A stretch of DNA of 64,000 nucleotides from Cristatella mucedo. Its lineage: Eukaryota; Bryozoa; Phylactolaemata; Cristatellidae. The DNA lies in NCBI GenBank assembly GCA_009760855.2, contig WPIO01000009.1, positions 7,291,001 through 7,355,000 on the forward strand. Direction: 5' to 3'. Below are positions 28,479 to 56,259 of the stretch, one piece after another. The number at the start of each line of letters is the position of its first letter. Positions within the stretch are counted from its first letter, which is position 1. The translations under genes were made by a program, and so were the position numbers. Under the pieces are notes generated by a model that was not told the origin of the DNA, ran no database searches, and saw only the letters and a program-made list of their open reading frames with translations.

Positions 28479-28497
28479 ATGGCTTCGTGCTCTCAAG
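28479..28497 (+). CDS. KCNAB: Kv-beta exon 1 (start codon)
   Basis: Encodes MASCSQ plus one base, then the donor gtgagc. This is the first ATG in its open frame, with G at -3 and G at +4 (good Kozak context), inside a CpG-rich block. Its phase (1) fits exon 2 exactly, creating Val7. The short N terminus is not conserved, so this assignment rests on splice-site quality, phase and position only. Confidence 0.6.

Positions 28498-56259: not shown

Follow-up and report, generated by a model that had tools for sequence, protein, structure and literature searches.

The analyzed window, a 64,000-nt stretch of the genome of the bryozoan Cristatella mucedo (contig WPIO01000009.1, positions 7,291,001 to 7,355,000), contains a Kv-beta gene on its plus strand. 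Fifteen exons, extending from 28479 to 56259, splice into 1,059 nt encoding 352 residues followed by TGA; the spliced frame has no internal stop. Exon 1 (28479-28497, 19 nt), the putative first coding exon, encodes MASCSQ and was placed by splice signal and phase. Exon 2 (29095-29155, 61 nt) follows the acceptor ctttttttgcag and ends in GGGMPYR, whose methionine (Met24) offers an alternative start. The following exons were located by tblastn and splice joining: exon 3 (33661-33704, 44 nt), exon 4 (36496-36533, 38 nt, followed by a GC donor), exon 5 (36886-36965, 80 nt, with D72 and Y77 of the catalytic tetrad), exon 6 (40520-40564, 45 nt), exon 7 (40688-40732, 45 nt, with K105 of the tetrad), exon 8 (43687-43730, 44 nt), exon 9 (45049-45135, 87 nt, with N145), exon 10 (45493-45578, 86 nt, with the cofactor segment GTSRWS), exon 11 (49421-49541, 121 nt), exon 12 (49648-49742, 95 nt, with the cofactor segment WSPLACG), exon 13 (53094-53214, 121 nt), and exon 15 (56176-56259, 84 nt, ending in NKPPATKRR before the stop codon). 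Exon 14 (55826-55914, 89 nt), which carries a further cofactor segment and begins after a weak tandem acceptor, was placed by splice joining.

An earlier note on this DNA had proposed a Kv-beta gene dispersed over 15 small exons, with a 352-residue product in correct phase at all junctions. Both the identity and the strand were right, as judged by the match to the Kv-beta profile TIGR01293 (530.1 bits) and by 12 colinear tblastn blocks, and so were the length of the product and its phase, the frame being open over all 14 junctions. The gene is also, as claimed, invisible as a single ORF, since the listed ORFs of at least 100 aa each cover only pieces of it. The number of exons shorter than 90 nt had been given as nine, but the correct count is 12 of 15 (all except exons 11, 12, and 13).

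Human Kv-beta2 served as tblastn query, in a version that agrees with the aligned PDB chains from residue 39 on. The 12 resulting blocks (28.9-69.3 bits) were all on the plus strand and in protein order, with starts spanning 33653 to 56170. The top minus-strand match scored 22.7 bits, ten windows shuffled in two-base blocks gave at most 25.4 bits, and the reversed window gave 25.4 bits. The colinear blocks thus scored above the shuffled and reversed controls. When the spliced product was aligned with Kv-beta2, no indels were detected from Tyr26 onward. Homology backs the predicted exons 3-15; such backing is lacking for exon 1 and for most of exon 2. What the window itself shows is the coding sequence of exons 3-15, together with the splice sites, the family membership, and the retained residues.

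When 10 further ORFs of the window were scanned with Pfam, a single match was obtained, a reverse transcriptase. Reverse transcriptase fragments (RVT_1, 33.6 and 41.7 bits), LINE-type by eye, lie on the minus strand at 15059-15610 and 25163-25558. A minisatellite with a 36-nt unit in about 21 copies, open in several frames, occupies 26175-26937. Intron 3 of the Kv-beta gene includes two tandem arrays, at 34891-35083 (16-nt unit, 12.1 copies) and 35148-35290 (24-nt unit, 6.0 copies), which are probably recent, as both consist of 100% matches. Downstream of the gene, the minus-strand ORF 61924-62802 matches Pfam ARMC9_ARM at 62404-62625 (82.3 bits, ORF residues 60-133), marking part of ARMC9, a neighboring gene on the strand opposite to Kv-beta.

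Thirteen introns are of the GT-AG type; intron 4, after position 36533, is GC-AG (GAG|gcaagt). Splice sites were scored with a small model derived from introns 2-14, leaving out the intron under test, and ranked among all GT or AG sites of the window. Of the 14 donors, ten were among the best 2.2% of GT sites; the remaining four (introns 4, 7, 11, and 13) ranked at 5.4%-12.1%, and two of these, at introns 11 and 13, were mediocre by model score. Similarly, 13 of the 14 acceptors were within the top 5.8% of AG sites. The exception was the weak acceptor of exon 14, which 45.6% of the AG sites in the window equal or exceed in score. By eye, this acceptor (GAGCAG) is a tandem, and use of its upstream AG would add one alanine, which Kv-beta2 does not have.

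The product matched TIGR01293 over its full length (1-319) and well above the cut-off of 365.4 bits; its score against Pfam Aldo_ket_red was 219.9 bits. Among the best 60 of 75 matching PDB chains, Kv-beta2 scored 508-516 bits, AKR6D1 356 bits, and all others 180 bits or less. Identity was 66.8% to Kv-beta2 (over 328 residues), 51.7% to L001, and 49.4% to AKR6D1. L001 (positions 501-1472 of that entry, contig CADDYX010000119.1, titled Verrucomicrobia bacterium) is an aldo-keto reductase (AKR) gene and the only relative among the 67 matches obtained when six peptide patterns of the product were run against genome contigs. Three stretches of viral contigs also fitted a pattern, none of them a relative. 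AKR6D1 (PDB 8HW0) is presumably of bacterial origin. Over the entire barrel, both AKR6D1 and L001 align with the product with no net gaps, and L001 is one uninterrupted ORF in contrast to the 15 exons of the window gene.

The profile cut-off alone is not decisive, because L001 also passes it, if barely (373.0 vs 365.4 bits). Unlike the cut-off, diagnostic residues do separate the product from L001 and AKR6D1. At 32 positions, the product agrees with Kv-beta2 against the residue common to both reductases; these include N158 and R189, where L001 and AKR6D1 have His and Glu, respectively. The opposite pattern, agreement with the two reductases and difference from Kv-beta2, was found at 17 positions, as expected of shared ancestral residues. 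By identity and by these positions, the predicted product is nearer to animal Kv-beta than it is to other reductases of the AKR6 type. Compared with Kv-beta2 (KCNAB2, AKR6A; PDB 2A79, 1QRQ, 3LUT), with which it shares the tetrad, it differs in its unrelated N-terminal residues and in its C-terminus, which ends in ATKRR. Drosophila Hyperkinetic, an invertebrate Kv-beta that works with Shaker, was not among the matches in the collections searched. Taken together, we regard it as nearly certain that the locus is an intact, probably single-copy animal Kv-beta gene (KCNAB/Hyperkinetic-type, AKR6A), whose product would most likely be a Kv-beta2-like NADPH barrel, a tetramer, and a modulator of Kv1 channels.

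The start of the protein is the part of this model for which a different reading is most credible. The predicted N-terminus comprises 23 residues before MPYR; it represents a putative 5′ end and has no obvious inactivation peptide by eye, an observation that bears on the Kv-beta1/3 type, i.e. a long N-terminus with an inactivation peptide. Within exon 2, MPYR alone fits the family, and the earlier part has no homology. Translation from Met24 (MPYRNLG) is an equally simple model, because GGGMPYR closes exon 2 and the block conserved across the family begins with YRNLG, two residues after this methionine. The same gene could then encode a protein of 329 aa beginning at Met24, or one using another first exon, with MASCSQ and the glycine run being non-coding. 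The equivalent place of L001 is where its ORF begins (MNYRRLGKSG), and the AKR6D1 chain begins with MEYRRLGKSG. Moreover, three candidate first exons in 24001-29080, exon 1 among them, passed a simple test of donor and phase, and none of the three could be checked by homology. On the other hand, the exon 1 donor ranks in the top 0.2% of window GT sites and the exon 2 acceptor in the top 3.1% of window AG sites, and the phase between the two exons fits. A search above position 10000 for alternative exon 2 ends (a Tyr or Phe codon, AG or CG, and a donor) returned only 24063 and 29151, the latter being the end of exon 2 itself. We give this alternative for the protein start a chance of just under one half. 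The GC-rich segment 28001-30000 (CpG observed/expected 1.43, GC 0.69; CpG observed/expected of the whole window, 1.08) would fit a promoter region, although its composition proves nothing in this respect because that of 2001-4000 is similar (CpG observed/expected 1.34, GC 0.66).

The tetrad (D72, Y77, K105, and N145) has the Kv-beta form, which is D85, Y90, K118, and N158 in the numbering of Kv-beta2. The constant offset of 13 from Kv-beta2 described in the earlier note was recovered at all 25 catalytic and cofactor positions checked, the tetrad included, a list based on Kv-beta2 structures. Twenty-four of them are identical to Kv-beta2, the exception being Y262, which is Glu249 in the product. 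From retention of the full tetrad it had also been concluded that the oxidoreductase site is working. The retention itself was confirmed; the step from there to activity is plausible by extrapolation from Kv-beta2, and is limited by the fact that redox sensing by the cofactor alone could keep the same residues. According to PMC9317154, Kv-beta2 reduces carbonyls in vitro, albeit slowly, and Kv-beta in purified form works more slowly than other AKRs, its physiological substrates not having been identified.

These observations bear on a second alternative, i.e. that the protein is a channel-only subunit whose cofactor is structural or a redox sensor and whose enzyme activity is negligible. The slow catalysis and the lack of an identified physiological substrate, as given in PMC9317154, are in line with it, as is Asn145 at the position where L001 and AKR6D1 have His. 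However, all four tetrad residues match those of Kv-beta2, a reported carbonyl reducer in vitro (PMC9317154). We consider the channel-only reading possible but rather unlikely; the sequence fits what would be a working, slow active site of Kv-beta2 type. Concerning other functional residues, five cysteines of Kv-beta2 are named in PMC8994742, with C301 and C311 as the main palmitoylation sites. Three of the five are kept (C248, C301, and C311, corresponding to C235, C288, and C298 here), and C51 and C212 are replaced by other residues.

To determine copy number, the genome (572 Mb in 688 contigs) was searched exon by exon with the TIGR01293 profile. Eight matches were found, six being exons of the window gene and two located on another contig (C111). 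The latter two, with scores all far below the cut-off, lie inside long ORFs that are aldo-keto reductases by Pfam. They were rejected as Kv-beta, scoring 65.5 and 51.2 bits with the Kv_beta model vs 91.6 and 93.4 bits with a methylglyoxal reductase model. The earlier note had considered that a paralogue might be expressed elsewhere while this copy is silent. No second Kv-beta locus was found in this search of the animal's own genome, which detected only six of the 15 exons of the window gene and may therefore have overlooked a paralogue that is divergent or split into small pieces. Kv-beta is thus probably single-copy. That the window gene is a decaying or silent copy (a pseudogene) is extremely improbable, since, despite the weak exon 14 acceptor, it has no internal stop, no frameshift, and no indel from Tyr26 onward, it has kept the tetrad, and the TIGR01293 genome search returned no other Kv-beta.

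A search of the same genome for the T1 domain (BTB_2) produced 23 matches. One of these loci, L014, has an open frame of 529 residues encoding a Kv1/Shaker alpha subunit. This frame combines BTB_2 (T1) and Ion_trans domains, carries the segment FYELGDAAVEKF behind T1, ends in ETDV, and scores 687 bits against Drosophila Shaker. The genome therefore encodes the partner expected for a Kv-beta. Three more loci (L017, L018, and L024) resemble divergent Kv1-type T1 domains by eye, and other BTB_2 matches were Kv2-, Kv3-, and Kv4-like by eye. Fold, tetramer formation, channel binding, catalysis, and expression of the window gene are predicted by analogy with Kv-beta2. The product would most likely fold as an NADPH-binding TIM barrel and, beneath the T1 domain of the Shaker/Kv1 channel, assemble into a tetramer. 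It would likewise modulate trafficking and gating of the channel according to the redox state of the cofactor, and reduce carbonyls slowly, as Kv-beta2 does.

Could the unusual sites have a function of their own? Skipping an exon of 38 or 44 nt would shift the frame. Together with the GC-AG intron 4 and the tandem acceptor of exon 14, such short exons could form a splicing switch acting on the redox control of Shaker, in a single-copy gene with anciently split, vertebrate-like exon boundaries. We regard this idea as very doubtful. The intron positions are presumably similar to those of vertebrate KCNAB genes; if the boundaries are indeed the same, the splitting into exons would be ancient.

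The gene is an ordinary Kv-beta gene from a thoroughly described family, and apart from its small exons it has no unusual traits. Its sequence is new, the kind of gene is already known, and established knowledge of Kv-beta is unchanged by it. It illustrates well how a gene can escape ORF-based scanning, and one animal genome hereby yields a Kv-beta/Shaker pair for comparison.
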